From assembly GCF_002797495.1 (NCBI RefSeq), contig NZ_PGEZ01000001.1, positions 186,001 through 250,000 on the forward strand: a stretch of 64,000 nt of DNA, given 5' to 3'. Positions within the stretch are counted from its first letter, which is position 1. The number at the start of each line of letters is the position of its first letter. The translations under genes were made by a program, and so were the position numbers. The notes under the pieces were generated by a model. The model was not told the origin of the DNA, did no database searches, and saw nothing but the letters and a program-made list of their open reading frames with translations. This stretch comes from Mumia flava. GTDB lineage: Bacteria > Actinomycetota > Actinomycetes > Propionibacteriales > Nocardioidaceae. This document shows positions 42,992 through 53,992 of the stretch, piece by piece.

Positions 42992-43942
42992 TCAGTCGGC
43001 GCCGCGGATGACCTCGAGCGCGTGCTCGAGATCCTGCGGGTACGGGCTGGAGAACTCCATCCAGTCGCGCGTCCGCGGATGCTCGAGACCCAGCCGTACG
43101 GCGTGGAGCCACTGCCGGTCCAGCCGCACACGACGCGCGAGCGTCGGGTCCGAGCCGTACAGCGGGTCACCGACGCACGGATGCTTGAGCGCAGCCATGT
43201 GGACACGGATCTGGTGCGTCCGACCGGTCTCCAGCTTGATCGTCAGCAGGCTGGCGAAGCGGTGCGCCTCGAGCGTCTCGTAGTGCGTCAGGCTGGCACG
43301 GCCGTCGGCCATCACCGCGAACTTCCAGTCGTGCTTGGGATGCCGGCCGATCGGGGCGTCGATCGTGCCCTCGAGCGGGTCCGGGTGGCCCTGGACGAGC
43401 GCGTGGTACGTCTTGTCGACCGTGCGGTCGCGGAACGCCTGCTTGAGCACGGTGTAGGCGTGCTCTGACTTCGCCACGACCATCAGGCCGCTCGTCCCGA
43501 CGTCGAGCCGTTGCACGATGCCCTGCCGCTCGGGGGCACCGGACGTGCTGATCCGGAACCCCGCGCCGGCGAGATGGCCGACGACGGTCGGGCCCGTCCA
43601 GCCCACGCTCGGGTGGGCGGCGACGCCCGCCGGCTTGTCGACGACCACGATCTCCTCGTCGTCGTGCACGATCCGCACACCCTCGACGACCTCGGGGACC
43701 ACCGCGGTGTGGTCGCGCTCCCGCGGGATGGTGACCTCGAGGAACGCCCCGGGCTCGACGCGATCGGACTTGCCGGCGGCGTGATGGTCCACCTGGACGT
43801 GGCCGGCAGCGACGAGCTCGGCCACCCGGGTGCGAGACAGCCCCAGCAGACGAGCGAGCGCGGCGTCCAGCCGCTGCCCGGCGAGCCCGTCGGGCACGAA
43901 GTACACGCGGTGCTCGGCGCCCGAGAGATCGGGGCCGGTCAT
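42992..43942 (-). CDS. rluD: Ribosomal large-subunit pseudouridine synthase, RluD type
   Basis: 316 residues: an S4 RNA-binding domain (~15-75, [22 protein letters not shown]) and a pseudouridine synthase domain. The catalytic Asp is in [16 protein letters not shown], where most bacteria have HRLD; Q is common in actinobacteria. [18 protein letters not shown] is also diagnostic. The target is expected to be 23S rRNA helix 69. The ATG at 43942 overlaps the lspA stop by 4 bp. Confidence 0.94.
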
Positions 43943-44577
43943 CGCTGGTCGGGCTCGTCGGGCTCGTCGACCTCCCCGCGAGCACCCGACGGGTCGGGGT
44001 CCGACGACGGCTCCGCCTCGTGCCGTCCGGCTCGCGTACCGTCCAGCCCGACACCGCGGACGGTCTGGATCACGATGATGACGGCCGCCAGGTTGATCAT
44101 CACGTCGGCGATGTTGAACACCGGCCAGCTCGGCGGCCAGTCCGGGAACTGGAGGAAGTCCACGACGTGGCCCCGCAACGGCGCCGGGTCCCGGAAGATC
44201 CGGTCGGTCAGGTTGCCCAGCGCCCCGGCGAGCAGCAGACCGAGCCCGACCGCCCAGCCCGGGTCCCGCAGGCGCGGCGCCATCCGGATGACGACGACGC
44301 AGACCGTGGCGGCGATGAGCGTGAGCACGATCGTGAAACCCGTGGCCATCCCGAACGCCGCCCCGGGATTGCGGACGAACGTGAGGTGCAGGACGTGGGG
44401 GATCACGACGACGGAGTCGGCGCCCTCGAGCCGGGCGACCGCGATGATCTTGGTGATGACGTCGGTGAGGTACCCGATCACCGCGACCGCCACGAAGAGG
44501 CCGAGCCGCCGTCGGCGGCTCGGCGTGGTGGGGTCGTCGTTCGACGGGGTCAGCGACGTTCCTCGCGTTGCTTGCAT
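43939..44577 (-). CDS. lspA: Signal peptidase II (lipoprotein signal peptidase)
   Basis: About 212 residues with four membrane segments. The two catalytic aspartates are in [14 protein letters not shown] and [13 protein letters not shown], and [14 protein letters not shown] is conserved. It removes signal peptides of lipoproteins after Lgt has acted. A soluble Asp/Glu-rich C-terminal tail of ~40 residues is extra. ATG 44577 overlaps the end of the DksA-like gene by 28 bp; a GTG at 44586 is an alternative. No strong ribosome site is seen, so translation is likely coupled. Confidence 0.93.
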
Positions 44578-45488
44578 GTCATGCACAGTGTCGCACGCGG
44601 GAACGCCATCAGCCGCATCTTCCCGATCGGCTGCCCGCAGCTCTCGCAGATGCCGTACGTCCCGGCGTCGATCCGCTTGATCGCCTTCTCGACCTGGACG
44701 AGGAGCTCCCGGTGGTTCGCGGCGAGGGACATCTCGGCGTCACGCTCCAGGGAGTTCGAGCCGACGTCCGCCTGATCGTTGCCCGCTCCGTCCACTCCCC
44801 CGCTCAGCAGATCGGCGAGACCGCGCTCGGCGATGCCGATCTCGTCGTACAGCCGCGAGCGCTCGCTCGTCAGCACGTCCAGCACCTCGGCGAGCTCCGC
44901 CTGGGTCCACGGTGACTCGTCCGCCTTGACGGCGAGCGCCGCGGCCTTGGCGGAGGTCTTCTTCGCGGCAGTCTTCTTCACGGGCGCTCTCTTCGCGGTC
45001 GTCTTCTTCGCTGGTGCCTTCGTGGCGGTCTTCTTCGCTGGTGCCTTCGTGGCGGTCTTCTTCGCCGCGGTCTTCTTCGCGGCCGTCTTCTTCGCCGCTG
45101 TTTTCTTCGCCGCGGTCTTCTTCGCGGCCGTCTTCTTCGCCGCGGTCTTCTTCGCGGCCGTCTTCTTCGCCGCGGTCTTCTTCGCTGCGGTCTTCTTCGC
45201 GGCCGTCTTCTTCGCGGCCGTTTTCTTCGCCGCGGTCTTCTTCGCGGCCGTCTTCTTCGCGGCCGTCTTCTTCGCGGCCGTCTTCTTCGCCGCGGTTTTC
45301 TTCGCCGCGGTCTTCTTCGCCGCGGTTTTCTTCGCCGCGGTTTTCTTCGCCGCGGTCTTCTTCGCGGCCGTCTTCTTCGCGGCCGTCTTCTTCGCGGCCG
45401 TCTTCTTCGCCGCGGTCTTCTTCGCCGCGGTCTTCTTCGACGGACCCGCGCGCGTCGCGGCCTTCGTGGTCGTTGCTGCGCCTGCCAT
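44550..45488 (-). CDS. DksA/TraR zinc-finger protein with long AAKKT repeat tail
   Basis: 312 residues. After a short start ([16 protein letters not shown]), about 25 perfect AAKKT pentapeptides run to residue ~145. They are followed by variants with TKAPAKK and KRAPVKK to ~185, a histone-H1-like, strongly basic region. The C-terminal ~120 residues are a DksA/TraR domain: a coiled coil ([18 protein letters not shown]) and a C4 zinc finger (CESCGQ then CMTCKQ). Such proteins bind RNA polymerase; the tail probably binds DNA or RNA non-specifically, by inference. ATG 45488 is preferred over upstream extension because GAGGGGG precedes it. Confidence 0.88.
45061..45435. repeat. Tandem 15-bp repeat inside the DksA-like gene
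   Basis: Twenty-five consecutive 15-bp units (four per 60 bases, no slips), each coding AAKKT on the minus strand. The units vary silently at the Ala and Thr codons (GCCGCGGTC, GCGGCCGTC, GCCGCTGTT and so on). Variation is at third positions, so selection keeps the peptide while the DNA drifts. Changes in copy number would stay in frame. Confidence 0.92.
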
Positions 45489-45654
45489 TGCTCGGCCCCC
45501 TCGGTCGTGCACACGACTCGCACACCGCCGAGCGCCGGGTGCGTTCGCGATGTGCAACAGTGCCGGAAGAGTAGGCCCGCCCGGGGTCGCAGACAAGCCG
45601 AGATGCACGTGTCGCCCGGGGCAGCCGCTCCGATCGCCCCTTCACCGGCTGCAC

Positions 45655-45928
45655 TACACTCGGAGAAGCCGCAGGTGACGACGGGGACAGGGACGTCGCG
45701 ATCCGCGCGCCAGAAGCGACCCGGGGACGGTGGGAGCCCGGGGGCACGCCGCGTCGTTCATCACCCCTGAGCCGCCGGAGGAACGACCCTCGGGTCCAGT
45801 AGAACCGTGCAGCGGCGAGCAAGAGAGGGTGTGCCCGACGGCACGCCAAGAAGGGTGGTACCGCGGGGCCCGACGCCTCGTCCCTTCGTCAGCAAGCACC
45901 AACCAGGTCTTTCTGTCGGAGGAGTCAC
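45655..45928 (+). promoter_or_regulatory. T-box riboswitch leader of ileS (with promoter)
   Basis: A TACACT -10 box at 45655-45660 precedes the leader. A short stem I, GTCGC (45695-45699) with GCGAC (45716-45720), has an AUC isoleucine codon in its loop (45701-45703), the likely specifier. The T-box core AAGGGTGGTACCGCG is at 45851-45865, with TGGT (45855-45858) to pair with the uncharged tRNA end. GAAGGG (45850-45855) can pair with CCCTTC (45882-45887). The SD GGAGGAG lies 5 nt before the ileS GTG and no terminator is seen, so control is probably of translation, as known for actinobacterial ileS leaders with very short stem I. The rest of 45489-45654 shows nothing. Confidence 0.88.
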
Positions 45929-48900
45929 GTGACCGCCGCCTACCGCCCCGTCCCAGCCCACGTCGACCTGCCCGCGCTCGAGCGTGAGGTGATCGAGCTG
46001 TGGCAGCGCGACGACACGTTCGCCCGCTCGCTGGCACAGCGTGACGGCGCACCCCGCTGGACGTTCTACGAGGGCCCGCCGACGGCCAACGGCACGCCGG
46101 GCGTGCACCACGTCGAGGCGCGCGTCTTCAAGGACGTCTTCCCACGCTTCCGGACCATGCAGGGCTACCAGGTCGACCGGAAGGCCGGCTGGGACTGTCA
46201 CGGGCTGCCGGTCGAGATCGCGGTCGAGAAGGAGCTCGGGTTCAACGGCAAGCCTGACATCGAGGCCTTCGGGATCGCGGAGTTCAACGCGCGGTGCCGT
46301 GAGGCGGTGCTCCGCAACGTCGATCTCTTCGAGGAGATGACGGACCGGATGGGCTACTGGGTCGACATGTCCGACCCGTACCGCACGATGGACACCCCGT
46401 ACGTCGAGAGCGTCTGGTGGGCGCTGAAGCAGATCTACGACAAGGGTCTGCTGAACGAGGACCACCGCGTCGCCCCGTACTGCCCGCGCTGCGGCACCGG
46501 CCTGTCCGACCACGAGGTCGCCCAGGGCTACGAGACCGTGGTCGACCCGTCGGTCTTCGTCCGCTTCCCGCTGACCTCCGGGCCGCTCGCGGGCCGGGCC
46601 GCCCTGCTGGTGTGGACGACCACACCGTGGACGCTGGTCTCGAACGCGCTCGTCGCCGCGCGCGCCGACGTCTCGTACGTCGCCGCGACCAACGGCGAGG
46701 AGACCTTGGTCGTCGCGGAACCGCTGCTGGAGCAGGCACTCGGCGAGGGCTGGGACATCACCGACCGCTTGACCGGATCCGAGCTGGAGGGGTGGCGCTA
46801 CGAACGACCGTTCGATCTCGTGGCCTGGCCGGACGACAACGCGCACTACGTCGTCACCGAGGACTACGTGACGACCGAGGACGGCTCCGGCCTCGTCCAC
46901 CAGGCCCCGGCCTTCGGTGCGGACGACTTCGCGTCCGGGCGACGCCACGGGATCGCGATGGTCAACCCCGTCGACGGCACCGGGCACTTCGCGGCCGACC
47001 TCGACCTGATCGGCGGTGCGTTCTTCAAGAAGGCCGATGCGGCCCTCGTCGAGGACCTCACGGCACGAGGCCTCCTCTACAAGCACGTCCCGTACGAGCA
47101 CGCCTACCCGCACTGCTGGCGCTGCCACACCCCGCTGATGTACTACGCCTCCCCTGCCTGGTACGTCCGCACGACGGCCGCCAAGGACGCGCTGCTGCGG
47201 GAGAACGAGGACACGAACTGGTTCCCCGAGACCATCCAGTGGGGCCGCTACGGCGACTGGCTGCGCAACAACGTCGACTGGGCGCTGTCCCGGAACCGCT
47301 TCTGGGGCACGCCCCTGCCGATCTGGCGCAACGACGCCGACCCCACCCGTACGGTCTGCGTCGCGTCGCTCGCCGAGCTGTCCGAGCTCACCGGCCGGGA
47401 CCTGTCCGAGCTCGACCCGCACCGCCCGTACATCGACGACGTCACCTTCACGATCGACGGCGAGGAGGGGACGTACCGCCGGGTGCCGGAGGTGATCGAC
47501 GCCTGGTTCGACTCGGGCTCCATGCCGTTCGCGCAGTGGGGCTACCCGCACGTCGAAGGGTCGGCCGAGAGGTTCGACCGCGCCTTCCCCGCGCAGTACA
47601 TCTGCGAGGCGATCGACCAGACCCGCGGCTGGTTCTACTCGCTGATGGCGGTCTCGACGCTGGTCTTCGACCGCAACTCCTACGAGAACGTCGTCTGCCT
47701 CGGCCACATCCTCGCCGAGGACGGTCGCAAGATGTCCAAGCACCTCGGCAACATCCTGCTGCCCGTCCCGCTGATGGACACCCACGGCGCGGACGCGGTC
47801 CGCTGGTTCATGGCCGCGTCCGGCTCACCGTGGCAGGCACGACGTGTGGGTCACACCGCCCTCCAGGAGATCGTCCGCAAGGTCCTGCTGACGTACTGGA
47901 ACACCGTCGCCTTCCACGTCCTGTACGCGCGCAGCGCCGGCTGGTCTCCCGCCGACGGCGCTCCGCAGGTCGCCGACCGGCCGGTGCTCGACCGCTGGCT
48001 CGCCTCGCAGACGCAACGACTCGTCGCCGACGTGACCGCCAGCCTGGAGCGCTTCGACACCCAGCGTGCCGGCACCGCGATCTCGACCTTCGTCGACGAC
48101 CTGTCCAACTGGTACGTCCGGCGGTCCCGCCGCCGGTTCTGGGACGGGGACCCCGCCGCGCTCGCCACCCTGCACGACACCCTCGACGTCCTCACCCGGC
48201 TGATGGCGCCGCTGACACCGTTCGTCACCGAGCAGGTCTGGCAGGACGTCGTACGCCCGGCCGATCCTGCGGCCGCCGACTCCGTGCACCTGGCCGACTG
48301 GCCGGTCGCCGATCCCGCGCTCGAGGTCGCGGGCCTCGACGATCAGGTGGCGCTCGCCCGCCGGATCACCGAGCTCGGACGGGCGGCGCGCGCCGAGGCG
48401 AAGGTCCGCACCCGCCAGCCCTTGCGCCGTGCGCTGGTGCCGTCCCGTGCCTGGTCCGGACTCGGCGACGAGCTCCGTACGGAGGTGTGCGACGAGCTCA
48501 ACGTCACCGCGCTCGAGTCCCTCGCCGACGTCGGGGGCGATCTGGTCGAGCACAGCGCGAAGGGCAACTTCCGTACGCTCGGCAAGCGGTTCGGCAAGCA
48601 GACCCCGGCTGTCGCTGCCGCGATCGCCGAGGCGGACGCCGCAGCGCTGGCCGGTGCACTCGCCGCGGGCGAGACGTTCACCGTCGACGTGGCCGGTGAG
48701 AAGGTCGCGGTGGGGGCGGACGAGGTGATCGTCTCCGAGCGCCCCCGTGAAGGCTGGGCCGTCGTGAACGACCAGGGTGAGACCGTCGCGCTCGACCTCG
48801 AGCTCGACGACGAGCTGCGTCGCGCCGGTGTCGCGCGGGAGGTCGTGCGCCTCCTCCAGGACACGCGCAAGAACGCCGGTCTCGAGGTCACCGACCGGAT

Positions 48901-49072
48901 CCGTGTCACCTGGAGTGCCGACGGTCAGGTCGGCGACGCCGTACGCGCCCATGCCGACGCGATCGCCGGCGAGGTGCTGGCGCTGGAGTTCGCCGAGTCC
49001 GCGGCCCCCGACGGTGCAACCGTCGCCGCGGACGACGACCTCGGTCTCACCGTCTCCGTCGTCCGCGCCTGA
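45929..49072 (+). CDS. ileS: Isoleucyl-tRNA synthetase, type 2, with GVHH in place of HIGH
   Basis: 1047 residues. The class I signature follows PPTANGTP and reads G58-V59-H60-H61 where HxGH is expected. The second signature is DGRKMSKHLGN. The editing domain (TTPWTLVSNALV) and the anticodon-binding half are complete, and zinc-type cysteines occur in CPRCG and CWRCH. The length and KMSKHLGN fit the eukaryote-like type 2 IleRS. In published work GXHH versions of IleRS2 are highly mupirocin-resistant. The start is GTG at 45929, behind GGAGGAG and a T-box leader. It is the only gene here in + orientation among the minus-strand cell-division region. Confidence 0.95.
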   Translation: MTAAYRPVPAHVDLPALEREVIELWQRDDTFARSLAQRDGAPRWTFYEGPPTANGTPGVHHVEARVFKDVFPRFRTMQGYQVDRKAGWDCHGLPVEIAVEKELGFNGKPDIEAFGIAEFNARCREAVLRNVDLFEEMTDRMGYWVDMSDPYRTMDTPYVESVWWALKQIYDKGLLNEDHRVAPYCPRCGTGLSDHEVAQGYETVVDPSVFVRFPLTSGPLAGRAALLVWTTTPWTLVSNALVAARADVSYVAATNGEETLVVAEPLLEQALGEGWDITDRLTGSELEGWRYERPFDLVAWPDDNAHYVVTEDYVTTEDGSGLVHQAPAFGADDFASGRRHGIAMVNPVDGTGHFAADLDLIGGAFFKKADAALVEDLTARGLLYKHVPYEHAYPHCWRCHTPLMYYASPAWYVRTTAAKDALLRENEDTNWFPETIQWGRYGDWLRNNVDWALSRNRFWGTPLPIWRNDADPTRTVCVASLAELSELTGRDLSELDPHRPYIDDVTFTIDGEEGTYRRVPEVIDAWFDSGSMPFAQWGYPHVEGSAERFDRAFPAQYICEAIDQTRGWFYSLMAVSTLVFDRNSYENVVCLGHILAEDGRKMSKHLGNILLPVPLMDTHGADAVRWFMAASGSPWQARRVGHTALQEIVRKVLLTYWNTVAFHVLYARSAGWSPADGAPQVADRPVLDRWLASQTQRLVADVTASLERFDTQRAGTAISTFVDDLSNWYVRRSRRRFWDGDPAALATLHDTLDVLTRLMAPLTPFVTEQVWQDVVRPADPAAADSVHLADWPVADPALEVAGLDDQVALARRITELGRAARAEAKVRTRQPLRRALVPSRAWSGLGDELRTEVCDELNVTALESLADVGGDLVEHSAKGNFRTLGKRFGKQTPAVAAAIAEADAAALAGALAAGETFTVDVAGEKVAVGADEVIVSERPREGWAVVNDQGETVALDLELDDELRRAGVAREVVRLLQDTRKNAGLEVTDRIRVTWSADGQVGDAVRAHADAIAGEVLALEFAESAAPDGATVAADDDLGLTVSVVRA

Positions 49073-49083
49073 GTCCCGCCGCC

Positions 49084-49386
49084 CCGGCCGCGCCAGCGCA
49101 CGGCCGGGGCCCGGAGACTCCGTAGCCAACTGGGGAGACCCCCACCGGCCGCGCCACCGCACGGCCGGGGCCCGGAGACTCCGTAGCCAACTGGGGAGAC
49201 CCCCACCTGGCTCGGAGAACCATCCGCGCCCGGTGCGGGACTGCCCAGCCAACTGGGGAGACCCCCACCGGCCGCGCCACCGAACGGCCGGGGCCCGGAG
49301 ACTCCGTAGCCAACTGGGGAGACCCCCACCTGGCTCGGAGAACCATCCGCGCCCAGTGCGGCACTGCCCAGTTGGCTACGGAGACC
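49084..49386. repeat. Intergenic tandem array of two 61-62-bp units (family B)
   Basis: Order: a (49084-49144), a (49145-49205), b (49206-49267), a (49268-49328), b' (49329-49386). Unit a starts CCGGCCGCGCCA; unit b starts CCTGGCTCGGAGAACC. Both share the tail with AGCCAACTGGGGAGAC. The last copy ends with the inverted core CCCAGTTGGCTACGGAG, the reverse complement of CTCCGTAGCCAACTGGG in unit a, so long hairpins can form. Unit b resembles the repeats at 8157-8359. It lies between the ends of the convergent ileS and divIVA genes and holds no gene. Confidence 0.85.
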
Positions 49387-49479: not shown

Positions 49480-50244
49480 TCAGCGACCGTCGTCGTCGCC
49501 GAACAGCGACTTCAGGCGGCGCGGCGCGTGCTCCGGCGGTGCGCTGTGCACGGCGGCCGGGGCCGGCGCGGACTGCTGCGTCGGCAGGGCCGCGGCCACC
49601 GACTGCTCGCCCTCGAGGTGGGAGAGCTGGGCCTGGAAGTAGCTCTTGAGGCGGCTGCGGTACTCGCGCTCGAAGGTGCGGAGGTGCTCGATCTCGCGGT
49701 TGAGGTCGTCGCGCTCCTTCTCGATGTTGCCGAACGCCTGCTGGCGGCGCTCCGCGGTCTCCTGGTCGAGCTTCTGCGCGCGCATCCGAGCCTCGGACTC
49801 CATCCGCTCGGCCTTGCCGCGCGCTTCGTTCTCGACGCGGTCGGCCTTGGTCCGGGCCTCACCGAGGATGCGGTCGGCCTCGTTCTTGGCGTTCTCGACG
49901 AGCTCGTCCGCGTTGTTGGTCGCGATCTCGAGCAGGCGAGCCGCAGCGCTCGACGCGTCGCCGACGGAGGTCGGCGCGGGCACCGGGGCCGGCGTGGGCG
50001 CCGGAGGCGGCGCCACCGGCATCGGGGCCGGCGCAGGCGGCTGGAAGGTGTCGAAGGACGACGTCGACGGACCGGACGACGCAGCGGCAAGCTTGGAGCG
50101 CAGATCCTCGTTCTCCAGCGTCAGGCGCTCGAGCTCGGCCTCGACCTCGTCGAGGAACTGGTCGACCTCCCCCATGTCGTAGCCCTCACGGAGCCGGACG
50201 GGGGTGAATCGCTTGTTCCGCACGTCCTCTGGCGTCAACGGCAT
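49480..50244 (-). CDS. divIVA: Polar growth protein DivIVA (Wag31)
   Basis: 254 residues. The N-terminal lipid-binding domain LTPEDVRNKRFTPVRLREGYDMGEVDQFLDEVE is typical. Two coiled coils (~25-55 and ~95-210) flank a Pro/Ala-rich spacer (~65-92). The second coil is rich in Glu, Ala and Arg and the tail ends RRLKSLFGDDDGR. In actinobacteria the protein marks cell poles and directs wall synthesis. A GAGGTG site lies ahead of the ATG at 50244. The 123-bp gap from yggT may hold its own promoter (TTGTCA at 50281-50286, minus strand, but no good -10). Confidence 0.94.
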   Translation of the reverse strand: MPLTPEDVRNKRFTPVRLREGYDMGEVDQFLDEVEAELERLTLENEDLRSKLAAASSGPSTSSFDTFQPPAPAPMPVAPPPAPTPAPVPAPTSVGDASSAAARLLEIATNNADELVENAKNEADRILGEARTKADRVENEARGKAERMESEARMRAQKLDQETAERRQQAFGNIEKERDDLNREIEHLRTFEREYRSRLKSYFQAQLSHLEGEQSVAAALPTQQSAPAPAAVHSAPPEHAPRRLKSLFGDDDGR

Positions 50245-50367: not shown

Positions 50368-50661
50368 TCATCTGAAGAAGATGTTCAGGTTGACGATCTG
50401 CAGGAGGTACAGGCCGATCAGGAGCACCATCGGCGACAGGTCCAGCGCCATCCCCCCGAACCGTACGGGCGGGATCACGCGACGGACCGCCCGCAGGGGC
50501 GGGTCGGTCACCGAGTAGATGGCCTCGCAGAGCACCAGCACGAAGCCCTTGGGCTGCCAGGAGCGAGCCAGGAGCTGGACCCAGTCGAGGATGAAGCGGG
50601 CCAGCAGCAGAAGGATGCAAGCCCACAGGACGAAGTTGATGATCTCACCGACAGCTCGCAT
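50368..50661 (-). CDS. yggT: YggT family membrane protein
   Basis: 97 residues with two membrane segments, INFVLWACILLLLARFILDW and MVLLIGLYLLQIVNLNIFF, separated by a loop with TDPPLRAVRRVIPPVRFGGMALDLSP, the family signature. It lies between sepF and divIVA as in most Gram-positives; the role is linked to division or membrane organisation but is unproven. It starts 1 bp after the sepF stop. Confidence 0.9.
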   Translation of the reverse strand: MRAVGEIINFVLWACILLLLARFILDWVQLLARSWQPKGFVLVLCEAIYSVTDPPLRAVRRVIPPVRFGGMALDLSPMVLLIGLYLLQIVNLNIFFR

Positions 50662-50662
50662 A

Positions 50663-51145
50663 TCAGCTCTGGTTGAAGAACCCGCCCTGGACGAGCCGCT
50701 GACGGTCCTCGGCCGTGACCGTGACGTTCGGCGGCGACAGCAGGAAGACCTTGTTCGTGACCCGCTCGATGGTGCCGTGGACCGCGAAGATCAACCCGGC
50801 TGCGAAGTCCACGAGCCGCTTGGCGTCGTCGTCGTCCATCTCCGTGAGGTTCATGATCACGGGGATCCCCTCGCGGAACTGCTCGCCGATCGTGCGGGCC
50901 TCGTTGTACGTCCGCGGGTGCAGCGTCACGATCCGCGAGAACTCGGCGACCGGAGCCGGCACCGGCGTCGGTCGCCGGCGCTCGTCGAGGCGCGCGACCG
51001 TGCGCACCTCGGACTCGCGGGGCGCCGGGCGCGCCGAACGGCGCGACGAGTCCTGCTCGGCGTAGTCGTCGTCGTAGTCGTCGAACTCGTCGACCTGCTC
51101 GACGAGGCCGAGGTACTCACCCATCTTGCGCATCGCGCCAGCCAT
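50663..51145 (-). CDS. sepF: Cell division protein SepF
   Basis: 160 residues. The N-terminal amphipathic helix [16 protein letters not shown] binds membrane. A disordered Asp/Arg/Pro linker (~17-75) leads to the SepF core with [43 protein letters not shown]. SepF anchors FtsZ to the membrane in actinobacteria, which lack FtsA. It is placed in the ftsZ cluster. Confidence 0.95.
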
Positions 51146-51198
51146 CGCCTGACCTCCCTGGAACTGCTGCGAATCCCCTGCTCGCTGTCGTTGCGACC

Positions 51199-51915
51199 CT
51201 ACCCGAGCGCAGGGCGCTCACCGAGCACCGAACGCCCGATCCGCACGTGTGTCGCGCCGTGCGCCACGGCCTGCTCGAGATCACCGCTCATCCCGGCGGA
51301 GATCGCGACCGCGCCGGGGTGCTCCGCACGAACCTCGGCGGCCACCTCGGACAGCCGGGCGAACGCGTCGTCCGGGTCCGCGTCCAGCGGAGCGACGGTC
51401 ATCACACCGGCGAGGCGCAGGTGCTCGGCGGATGCGATCGCGTCGGCGACGGACCGTACGTCCGCCGGTGCCGCACCCGCCCGACCGGCGGGCTCGTCGT
51501 CGCGTCCCTCGAGGTTCACCTGCACGTACGCGTCGATCCGCCGACCCGCCGCGGCCGCGCCGGACTCCAGCGCCGTGACGAGGCGGAGCCGGTCCACGGA
51601 GTGCACGGCGTCGGCGTAGCGGGTGACGGCGTTGGCCTTGTTGGTCTGGAGTCCGCCGACGAAGTGCCAGCGCAGTCGCGCCCCCGCCTCGGCGGCCTCG
51701 TCTCGTTTGCGCCCGGCCTCGGGATGGCGGTTCTCGCCGACATCGGTGACCCCGAGCTCGGCGAGCAGGGCGACGTCGGAGGCCGGGTACGTCTTGGTCA
51801 CGACCACGAGCGTGAGCTCCGCCGGGTCGCGCCCGGCCGCCTCGGCGGCGGCGGTGATGCGGCCGCGCACCCGCTCGAGGTTGGCTGCCAGCTCGCTCCT
51901 GCGCTCGTCGCTCAC
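51199..51915 (-). CDS. YggS family PLP-binding homeostasis protein
   Basis: 238 residues, an alanine-racemase-like barrel without a second domain. The PLP lysine is in [25 protein letters not shown] and [15 protein letters not shown] are diagnostic, although the usual Q of WHFIGxLQ-NK is followed here by [29 protein letters not shown] binds the phosphate. It maintains PLP and amino-acid balance. The GTG start at 51915 gives a GTGA overlap with the next upstream gene. Confidence 0.92.
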
Positions 51916-52646
51916 GGTCGCAACCGTACGATCCCGCCGAGCCGGCCGGACCGTACGCCCTGGCGCCGGTAGGAGAAGTAGTCCTCGTGCTCGATCGTGC
52001 AGGCGGGGTGGTGGTCGGCGAGATCGTGCACCAGCACCCCGTCGCGGCGCAGCTGTGCCCCGACGCCGGCCGCGAGATCGAGCGCGGGGGTCCCCCACGA
52101 CGTCTCCGACCACGTCGCGGGCTCGAGGTCCGCGACCTCGTCGCGCATGCCCTCGGGCACCTCGTAGCAGCGCCCGCAGGCACGCGGACCGATCCACGCC
52201 TCCGGTGCCCGGGCACCGAGCTCCCGCATCGCTGCCACCGCGGCGCCGCAGACGTCGAGCTCGACGCCACGGCGCCCGGCGTGCACCGCCGCGACCACGC
52301 CCGCCTCGTCGTCGGCGATCAGCACCGGGACGCAGTCGGCGACCCGGACCAGCAGAGCCACGTCCGGCCGGTCGGTGACCAGGGCGTCGGCGTCCGGCGG
52401 CGCATCCACGTCCTCGGCTCCGACGACCGCGACGTGGGCGCTGTGGTGCTGGCGCATCAGCACGAGCCGGGGACGGTCGGTGTCGAGAGCGGCGGCCAGG
52501 ACGGCGAGGTTGCGCTCGACGACCTCGCCGTCGTCGCCGTTGCTGGAGCCGAGGTTGAGGCTCGCCCACGGTCCGCTGCTCGCGCCGCCGTGGCGGTCGG
52601 TGAAGGCGAGGTCGGCCCGCTGCGTCCGATGGTGGAAGGCGAGCAC
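51912..52646 (-). CDS. pgeF: Purine nucleoside phosphorylase / laccase-domain protein (PgeF, YfiH)
   Basis: 244 residues. The conserved metal/active-site residues are in LMRQHHSAHV, RVADCVPVLI, AVHAGRRGVELDV and IGPRACGRCYEVPE. Homologues act as purine nucleoside phosphorylases, and some edit cell-wall precursors (PgeF). The HAGRRG here replaces the more usual HAGWRG, a change at one active-site residue. GTG 52646 overlaps the ftsZ stop by 1 bp (TAGTG). Confidence 0.9.
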   Translation of the reverse strand: MLAFHHRTQRADLAFTDRHGGASSGPWASLNLGSSNGDDGEVVERNLAVLAAALDTDRPRLVLMRQHHSAHVAVVGAEDVDAPPDADALVTDRPDVALLVRVADCVPVLIADDEAGVVAAVHAGRRGVELDVCGAAVAAMRELGARAPEAWIGPRACGRCYEVPEGMRDEVADLEPATWSETSWGTPALDLAAGVGAQLRRDGVLVHDLADHHPACTIEHEDYFSYRRQGVRSGRLGGIVRLRP

Positions 52647-53920
52647 TACTTGAGGAAGTCGGGGATGTCGAGGTCGTCGTCGAACGCGTCGGGCTGCCGC
52701 TTGGCGGTCGAGCCGTCCCTGCGCCGGACCACCTCGGTCTCGCCGTCCGGGCGCTCCTCGCGCGGGCGGTCGGGCTCGGTCCGCGAGCTCGCGGCCGTCG
52801 TGCGCTCCGACGGCGCGGGGCCGCCCGTGCTGCCGTTCGTCTTCGCGGCGGCGCCCACCGGCTGCGGGTCGCGCTCGCGCTCGACCGACGGCGAGGACGG
52901 CGTCTCGCGCTGAGTCGGGCGGGCCGGAGCGGCGTCACGGCGCAGCGCGGGCCGCGACGCGTCGCGTCGCTTGGGCATACCGCCGTCGAACCCGGCGGCG
53001 ATCACGGTGACCCGCACCTCGTCGCCCAGTGCGTCGTCGATCACGGCGCCGAAGATGATGTTGGCTTCGGCGTGCGCGGCCTCGCTCACCAGCGCGGCCG
53101 CCTCGTTGATCTCGAACAGCCCGAGGTCCGAGCCGCCGGCGATCGACAGCAGCACGCCGTGCGCCCCGTCGATCGACGCCTCGAGCAGCGGACTCGAGAC
53201 CGCCATCTCCGCGGCGGCCACCGCGCGGTCGTCCCCGCGCGCCGAGCCGATCCCCATCAGTGCGGAACCGGCGTCGGACATCACGGACTTCACGTCGGCG
53301 AAGTCGAGGTTGATCAGTCCCGGGGTGGTGATCAGGTCGGTGATGCCGGAGACGCCTTGCAGCAGCACCTGGTCGGCCTGCTTGAACGCGTCGATCATCG
53401 TGACCCCGCGGTCGCTGATCGACAGCAGCCGGTCGTTCGGGATCACGATCAGCGTGTCGACCTCCTCGCGCAGCGACTCGATCCCGTCGTCGGCCTGGTT
53501 GGCGCGGCGGCGGCCCTCGAAGGAGAACGGACGCGTGACCACGCCGATCGTCAGGGCACCGAGCGAGCGGGCGATCCGGGCGACGACGGGCGCGCCGCCC
53601 GTGCCGGTCCCGCCGCCCTCGCCGGCCGTGACGAAGACCATGTCGGCCCCCTTGAGGACCTCCTCGATGTCGTCGGCGTGGTCCTCGGCCGCCTGGCGGC
53701 CGGTGCCGGGGTTGGCGCCCGCGCCGAGTCCGCGGGTCAGCTCACGCCCGATGTCGAGCTTGACGTCGGCGTCGCTCATCAGGAGGGCCTGCGCGTCGGT
53801 GTTGATCGCGATGAACTCGACGCCCTTGAGACCGGCCTCGATCATCCGGTTGACGGCGTTCACGCCGCCGCCGCCGATGCCGACCACCTTGATCACGGCC
53901 AGGTAGTTCTGCGCTGCCAC
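52646..53920 (-). CDS. ftsZ: Cell division GTPase FtsZ
   Basis: 424 residues. Tubulin signature [22 protein letters not shown] and the T7 loop [11 protein letters not shown] are present. The variable linker is ~95 residues, rich in Arg, Pro and Ser, and the C-terminal peptide [11 protein letters not shown] is the SepF/FtsW-binding tail. GTG 53920 gives the usual [19 protein letters not shown] start and has GAGGGG at good spacing; the frame is open 5 codons further. It has its own promoter region at 53993-54028. Confidence 0.97.
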
Positions 53921-53992
53921 GATGGTGCCCCTCACGTGCTTGGGTGTGCTTCGAGTTCTGCGGGAAACCGCTCTCCCCGGCGAGCCGACGAA

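Follow-up and report, generated by a model that had tools for sequence, protein, structure and literature searches.

A type 2 isoleucyl-tRNA synthetase with a GVHH signature as the probable housekeeping enzyme of Mumia flava, and an apparent exchange of synthetase forms in the Nocardioidaceae

In the 64,000-nucleotide stretch of the Mumia flava genome analyzed here (the window), ileS encodes a type 2 isoleucyl-tRNA synthetase (IleRS) whose HIGH signature is changed to GVHH. This enzyme would be the single housekeeping IleRS of this Mumia-like Nocardioidaceae bacterium. Its third histidine would stand in for the first in catalysis, and the same side chain would clash with mupirocin, leaving the cell intrinsically and strongly resistant. 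A tRNA-Ile-sensing T-box probably sets the expression of the gene, through an effect on translation. In the wider family, the GXHH gene appears to have been repeatedly replaced by a distant type 2 HYGH enzyme, with the slot retained in some genomes. In Aeromicrobium-like genomes, the HYGH gene seems to arrive together with a T-box leader. We assign a probability of roughly 0.9 to the explanation as a whole (a housekeeping GVHH enzyme, intrinsic mupirocin resistance, a T-box, and an exchangeable form).

Class I synthetases carry HxGH at the position of the window GVHH. The codons GGC GTG CAC CAC were in frame with the ileS ORF and encode G58-V59-H60-H61 within EGPPTANGTPGVHHVEAR, so the replacement of HIGH named in the original prediction was borne out. 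The NCBIfam ileS equivalog TIGR00392 scored 862.6 bits on the protein (cut-off 621.4), and Pfam recognized tRNA-synt_1, Anticodon_1, and DUF5915. The coordinates are collected in Table 1.

Table 1. Features around ileS in the window, with the evidence for each.
Feature	Position	Strand	Evidence or remark
RluD-like pseudouridine synthase	42992..43942	-	Pfam PF00849; kept beside lspA in relatives
lspA	43939..44586	-	Pfam PF01252
DksA/TraR-type protein (traR)	44550..45608	-	Pfam PF01258, C-terminal part; ORF limits from mechanical list
5' leader, T-box-like structure	45729..45928	+	18-leader alignment, fold, pair counts with controls
T-box discriminator part, core GGTGGTACCGCG at 45854-45865	45821..45885	+	Rfam RF00230, 32.1 bits
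ileS, type 2 isoleucyl-tRNA synthetase, 1047 aa, GTG start (ORF list)	45929..49072	+	ORF, NCBIfam, Pfam, PDB matches
Swapped HIGH motif, codons of G58-V59-H60-H61	46100..46111	+	Sequence; GXHH in 80/80 related loci kept
KMSKH codons (residues 601-605), second class I signature	47729..47743	+	Sequence, alignment
divIVA, downstream neighbor	49480..50244	-	Pfam PF05103
yggT, sepF, alanine-racemase-fold (YlmE-like) gene, yfiH-like gene, ftsZ	50368..53935	-	Pfam

The four best PDB matches of the window IleRS were P. megaterium IleRS2 chains (863.5–876.5 bits), led by 8c8w, a laboratory GVHH mutant of that enzyme. They were followed by 1ile (853.4 bits), which we take to be T. thermophilus IleRS, and then by eukaryotic-type chains. 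The P. megaterium IleRS1 chains and 1ffy, presumably S. aureus IleRS1, scored 322.3–333.3 bits. DUF5915 covers residues 853-1044, and Pfam detected no zinc-binding family in the protein at E 0.001; a zinc-binding C-terminal motif separates IleRS1 from IleRS2 and is absent in type 2 (PMC10485003). The type 2 assignment was borne out by the scores of the IleRS2 chains, far above those of the IleRS1 chains, and by the C-terminal DUF5915. The same PDB and Pfam matches ruled out the reading as a type 1 enzyme whose motif is damaged.

Motifs were read by alignment in all counts given here. From at least 591 related loci in named genomes we kept the best 80, all with GXHH and KMSKH (GAHH 54, GTHH 23, GVHH 3). 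The closest of these 80 was from Mumia xiangluensis (84% identity), and two loci of S. griseus were included. All five other genomes searched from the window genus carried GVHH. On this comparison, GVHH can be taken as neither chance nor a base error, because all 80 kept loci share G-x-H-H with KMSKH and all five congeners have GVHH. GXHH is ordinary for the lineage and makes the enzyme a known kind of IleRS. KMSKH as an obligatory partner of GXHH was rejected, since 12 of 16 GXHH loci outside the window class in a phylum sample had KMSKS or KMSKR.

Brkic et al. (2023) named the G/AXHH motif in IleRS2, found it in 86 of 163 IleRS2 sequences placed in a tree (HXGH in the other 77), and tied it to very high mupirocin Ki values (PMC10485003). 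The window GVHH has the G (or A) first and the H third that define this motif, and the enzyme resembles the published group in being type 2 with a swapped HIGH motif; the motifs themselves differ (GVHH in the window, GAHH in S. griseus, ALHH in D. radiodurans). Changing ALHH to HVGH in the D. radiodurans enzyme lowered the Ki from 6600 to 8.1 µM, and the Ki rose from 0.20 to 35 µM in T. thermophilus and from 1.08 to 460 µM in P. megaterium when HVGH was turned into GVHH (PMC10485003). The ratios from the published table are about 815-, 175-, and 426-fold, respectively; the text of that paper gives "around 200-fold" for two of them and 823-fold. The replacement of the first histidine by the third in catalysis was shown with a P. 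megaterium IleRS2 mutant, and the third histidine was modelled as clashing with mupirocin (PMC10485003). The claim that GXHH type 2 enzymes are strongly mupirocin-resistant agrees with this work. Since motif and Ki are linked in this published work, we infer that the window enzyme is resistant. Two points weigh against the full explanation here. The Ki of the window enzyme is predicted from the motif, and the nearest enzyme that we met with a published millimolar Ki, that of S. griseus, has GAHH and is about 66% identical. Furthermore, the laboratory GVHH mutants stayed short of the millimolar range.

The leader upstream of ileS matched Rfam RF00230 over its discriminator part with an E-value of 1.9e-5 in a 521-base search. 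The score was under the gathering cut-off of 93, which also counts against the explanation, and no T-box was found at the curated threshold across the window. We aligned 18 of the 47 family leaders holding the core; they were chosen for having it. Their consensus fold contained 33 pairs, and in 22 of them both partners had changed at least once. Pairing cells amounted to 92.8%, as compared to 73.0% in shuffles and 40.3–49.4% in slid controls. The covariation score was 0.506 versus 0.163 for shuffles (0 of 500 as high) and 0.076–0.118 for slid controls, with a bias in favor of the structure because it was derived from the alignment that tested it. The core and the compensated, strongly covarying stems support the predicted T-box leader, in spite of the sub-threshold Rfam score. 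ATC at 45760-45762 is a possible Ile specifier. In its core, paired stems, and place before ileS, the leader resembles the translational ileS T-boxes of Actinobacteria reviewed in PMC7583486; apart from its score under the general Rfam cut-off, we saw no difference from them. A translational action of actinobacterial ileS T-boxes was proposed as probable in PMC1262725, and the window leader would act in the same manner.

The gene lies where it had been placed originally, beside the division cluster. The pseudouridine synthase–lspA–traR group flanks it on one side and divIVA–yggT–sepF through ftsZ on the other, according to Pfam, and ileS runs opposite to the neighbors on both sides. The two S. 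griseus loci (L092 and L093) have the same neighbor genes and a T-box core as well. We searched the organism's own assembly (4.40 Mb in 7 contigs, 99.75% complete) in three ways for a second ileS, the check proposed with the original prediction, and found one IleRS and no second. The next best match to the ileS model reached 202 bits. The other class Ia matches checked were ValRS, LeuRS (a single gene, matched in two pieces), MetRS, and MshC of mycothiol synthesis, and a weak 20-bit match fell in a 514-aa frame. The window ileS is very probably the housekeeping gene, because it is the sole IleRS found, is of type 2, has a normal chromosomal place, and follows a T-box-like leader; this supports the view that it is no extra resistance copy. 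The DksA/TraR-type neighbor has an apparent long KKTAA-repeat, histone-H1-like N-terminal part (window 45000-45450, - strand). A link to anti-phage defence was dropped, as PADLOC gave no match.

An IleRS match was present in all 120 family genomes searched. Identity to the window IleRS fell into two sets with a gap between them, 64–100% in 77 genomes and 38–41% in 43. In the first set we read the window enzyme and 49 others: GTHH in 39, GVHH in seven and the window, and GAHH, GVHS, and GTHT in one each, all with KMSKH. In the second set, each of the 20 enzymes read had HYGH and KMSKS. This canonical, type 2-like HYGH form occurs in other Actinomycetota, including part of the Nocardioidaceae. 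It performs the same reaction in the same host family and shares the T-box core and sometimes the slot with the window gene, while the signature pair and the low identity set it apart. It is expected to be far less mupirocin-resistant than the GXHH form, judging from published HXGH enzymes. Among 22 genera, 16 had the first form only, four the second only, and two both: g122 (second form in 3 of 23 genomes) and g134 (5 of 31). We call g134 Aeromicrobium-like and g1 Mumia-like, since named loci attach to their members with a branch length of zero or close to it; to equate g124 with Nocardioides would be guesswork. One genome (G196) held a second-form fragment beside the first form. It was excluded as a true double because its assembly is 90% complete with 3% contamination. 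The GVHS and GTHT enzymes (L198 in G159 and L199 in G150) keep a single histidine in the motif and have KMSKH and a T-box core; no such form was found in the available part of PMC10485003. In a class survey of 246 genomes, IleRS was sorted by score only, among the matches listed. On this basis, family f49 of the same order looked mixed among the matches listed, G417 and G462 giving one distant and one near match.

Distances in the traR|divIVA slot were taken between tblastn match ends. The HYGH gene occupied this slot in 8 of the 20 HYGH loci fetched; the other 12 had none of the slot neighbors in the ~4 kb flanks fetched. The GXHH gene of g134 lay 110–141 bases from traR in all six loci measured. 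The HYGH gene of g134 lay 348–351 bases from traR in five of five, each with an exact T-box core. Both genes pointed the same way, and divIVA lay beyond each of them. The upstream 500 bases were free of the core in 20 of 20 g134 GXHH loci read (L099, L100, L103–L109, L111–L115, and L117–L122) and likewise in one g131 locus (L116); one of these showed a two-mismatch resemblance to the core near the start. L014–L016 and L018–L024, also Aeromicrobium-like GXHH ileS loci, had no core within 500 bases upstream either. Outside g134 and g131, the core was present in all 28 family GXHH loci read, and 19 of 20 HYGH loci had it. The g134 HYGH leaders were on average 77% identical to the g124 leaders, which were 76% identical among themselves, and both were 65–67% identical to the leaders of GXHH genes. 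In L125 and L141 (g122) and L131 (g130), the HYGH gene was inside the slot but inverted. In L219 (g124) and L224 and L227 (g132), the traR and divIVA matches were 191–279 bases apart with no ileS between them.

We compared an IleRS tree with a tree of neighbor proteins. The former (LG+G4 without a mixture model) covered 20 of the 43 HYGH genomes and gave long-branch warnings. The latter, a quick tree, had 80 rows with 25 of the 43 HYGH hosts and four GXHH outgroup rows; 14 rows had about half of the columns or fewer, RluD and LspA supplied most of the data for the g124 hosts, and this tree gave long-branch warnings as well. The two forms were deeply split in the IleRS tree (support 100). The other HYGH copies of the family formed an 18-row clade that excluded G155, the g125 copy, and G231, one of the g122 copies. 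On the neighbor tree, seven form changes were needed, at least six of them forced by starred branches. The groups for the topology tests were defined by IleRS form after inspection of the tree. The neighbor genes rejected a single origin of the family HYGH hosts (one clade of 25 hosts, p-AU 2.5e-57) and one clade of the five g134 HYGH hosts (p-AU 2.7e-13), but not one clade of the three g122 hosts (p-AU 0.072). The IleRS of the five g134 hosts nevertheless formed one clade (SH-aLRT 100) beside the g124 copies. We read this as transfer because the IleRS and neighbor trees conflict. The GXHH form thus seems to be exchangeable rather than fixed; the pattern is observed, and its direction and cause are our reading of it. 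We consider repeated exchange of GXHH and HYGH ileS in the Nocardioidaceae highly likely. Repeated replacement of a GXHH ancestor would be the simplest direction, because GXHH is found in the outgroup rows from Streptomyces and Kribbella.

The two forms could instead descend from an ancestral gene pair with differential loss and no transfer. Both are type 2 and mostly have T-box cores, and the counts of form changes cannot separate gain from loss. However, only the doubtful G196 assembly, one genome in 120, carried a trace of both forms, and the g134 HYGH copies cluster beside g124 in spite of the neighbor-gene test, with leaders as close to those of g124 as the latter are to one another. This makes the gene pair improbable. 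Even less can be said for an additional, mupA-like acquired copy with the housekeeping ileS elsewhere. GXHH does accompany hyper-resistance (PMC10485003), and similar IleRS genes matched 256 plasmid records. MupA and MupB, plasmid-borne in staphylococci, likewise tie an IleRS to mupirocin resistance, but the window gene is chromosomal and the NCBIfam MupA/MupB exception models scored 718.2 and 722.1 bits on its protein, far under their cut-off of 1900. The slot is also conserved among relatives, and the single ileS found in the nearly complete genome rules the extra copy out for practical purposes.

The weight of mupirocin itself is a closer question. GXHH may have no present role against it and may reflect lineage history, or selection by mimics of Ile-adenylate other than mupirocin (the Streptomyces sulfonamides SB-203207/8, for instance), with mupirocin resistance as a by-product. 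The motif is uniform across large groups, a Streptomyces produces IleRS inhibitors (PMC6331615), and a Rhodococcus opacus plasmid carries a GTHH/KMSKH copy next to genes for condensation domains and carrier proteins. The large Ki shifts caused by the published motif swaps speak against this alternative, which we regard as quite possible but do not favor. For the exchange, the driving force is the uncertain part. Tentatively, and with considerable doubt, we suggest that the essential ileS slot of the Nocardioidaceae repeatedly exchanges hyper-resistant GXHH and far less resistant HYGH housekeeping synthetases (in Aeromicrobium-like genomes, at least, as a T-box-plus-gene cassette), driven by a trade-off between catalytic efficiency and exposure to natural Ile-adenylate mimics.

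With the housekeeping reading of the GVHH enzyme, M. flava can be added to the organisms with predicted intrinsic mupirocin resistance, in this case through its sole IleRS. The exchange pattern is more useful than the window gene itself and raises its interest somewhat over a known kind. Related species that share the slot and differ in the motif offer natural matched pairs for studying what hyper-resistance costs in growth and which natural agent selects for it. The transfer of ileS as such is not new, because Cvetesic et al. (2016) already raised the speculation of an extensive horizontal spread of ileS2 driven by resistance (PMC4861432). The G/AXHH motif and its mupirocin link are also known. 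What appears to be new is the in-slot exchange between motif forms, of which we found no description in the literature searched (mostly titles and abstracts).

Some minor observations concern other loci. The Rhodococcus plasmid copy (L228, NZ_CP095404.2, typed mobilizable) also adjoins an AMP-binding gene; it possibly serves self-resistance, or is an enzyme like SbzA of SB-203208 (PMC6331615). For L168, L169, and L171 (Actinomycetota), with GVHH, GVHH, and AVHT, pairwise alignment gave a degenerate-looking KMSKS region (DMHYS, EFSKS, and EMHGS). In the phylum sample, five of nine type 1-looking IleRS (L173, L175, L179, L181, and L182) had HxGT, with the fourth histidine lost; every IleRS1 of the published set has HXGH (PMC10485003). 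Just 3' of the window ileS, direct repeats with 61/123-nt spacing (49055-49361) gave 33 matches in the organism's own genome, the window copies included.
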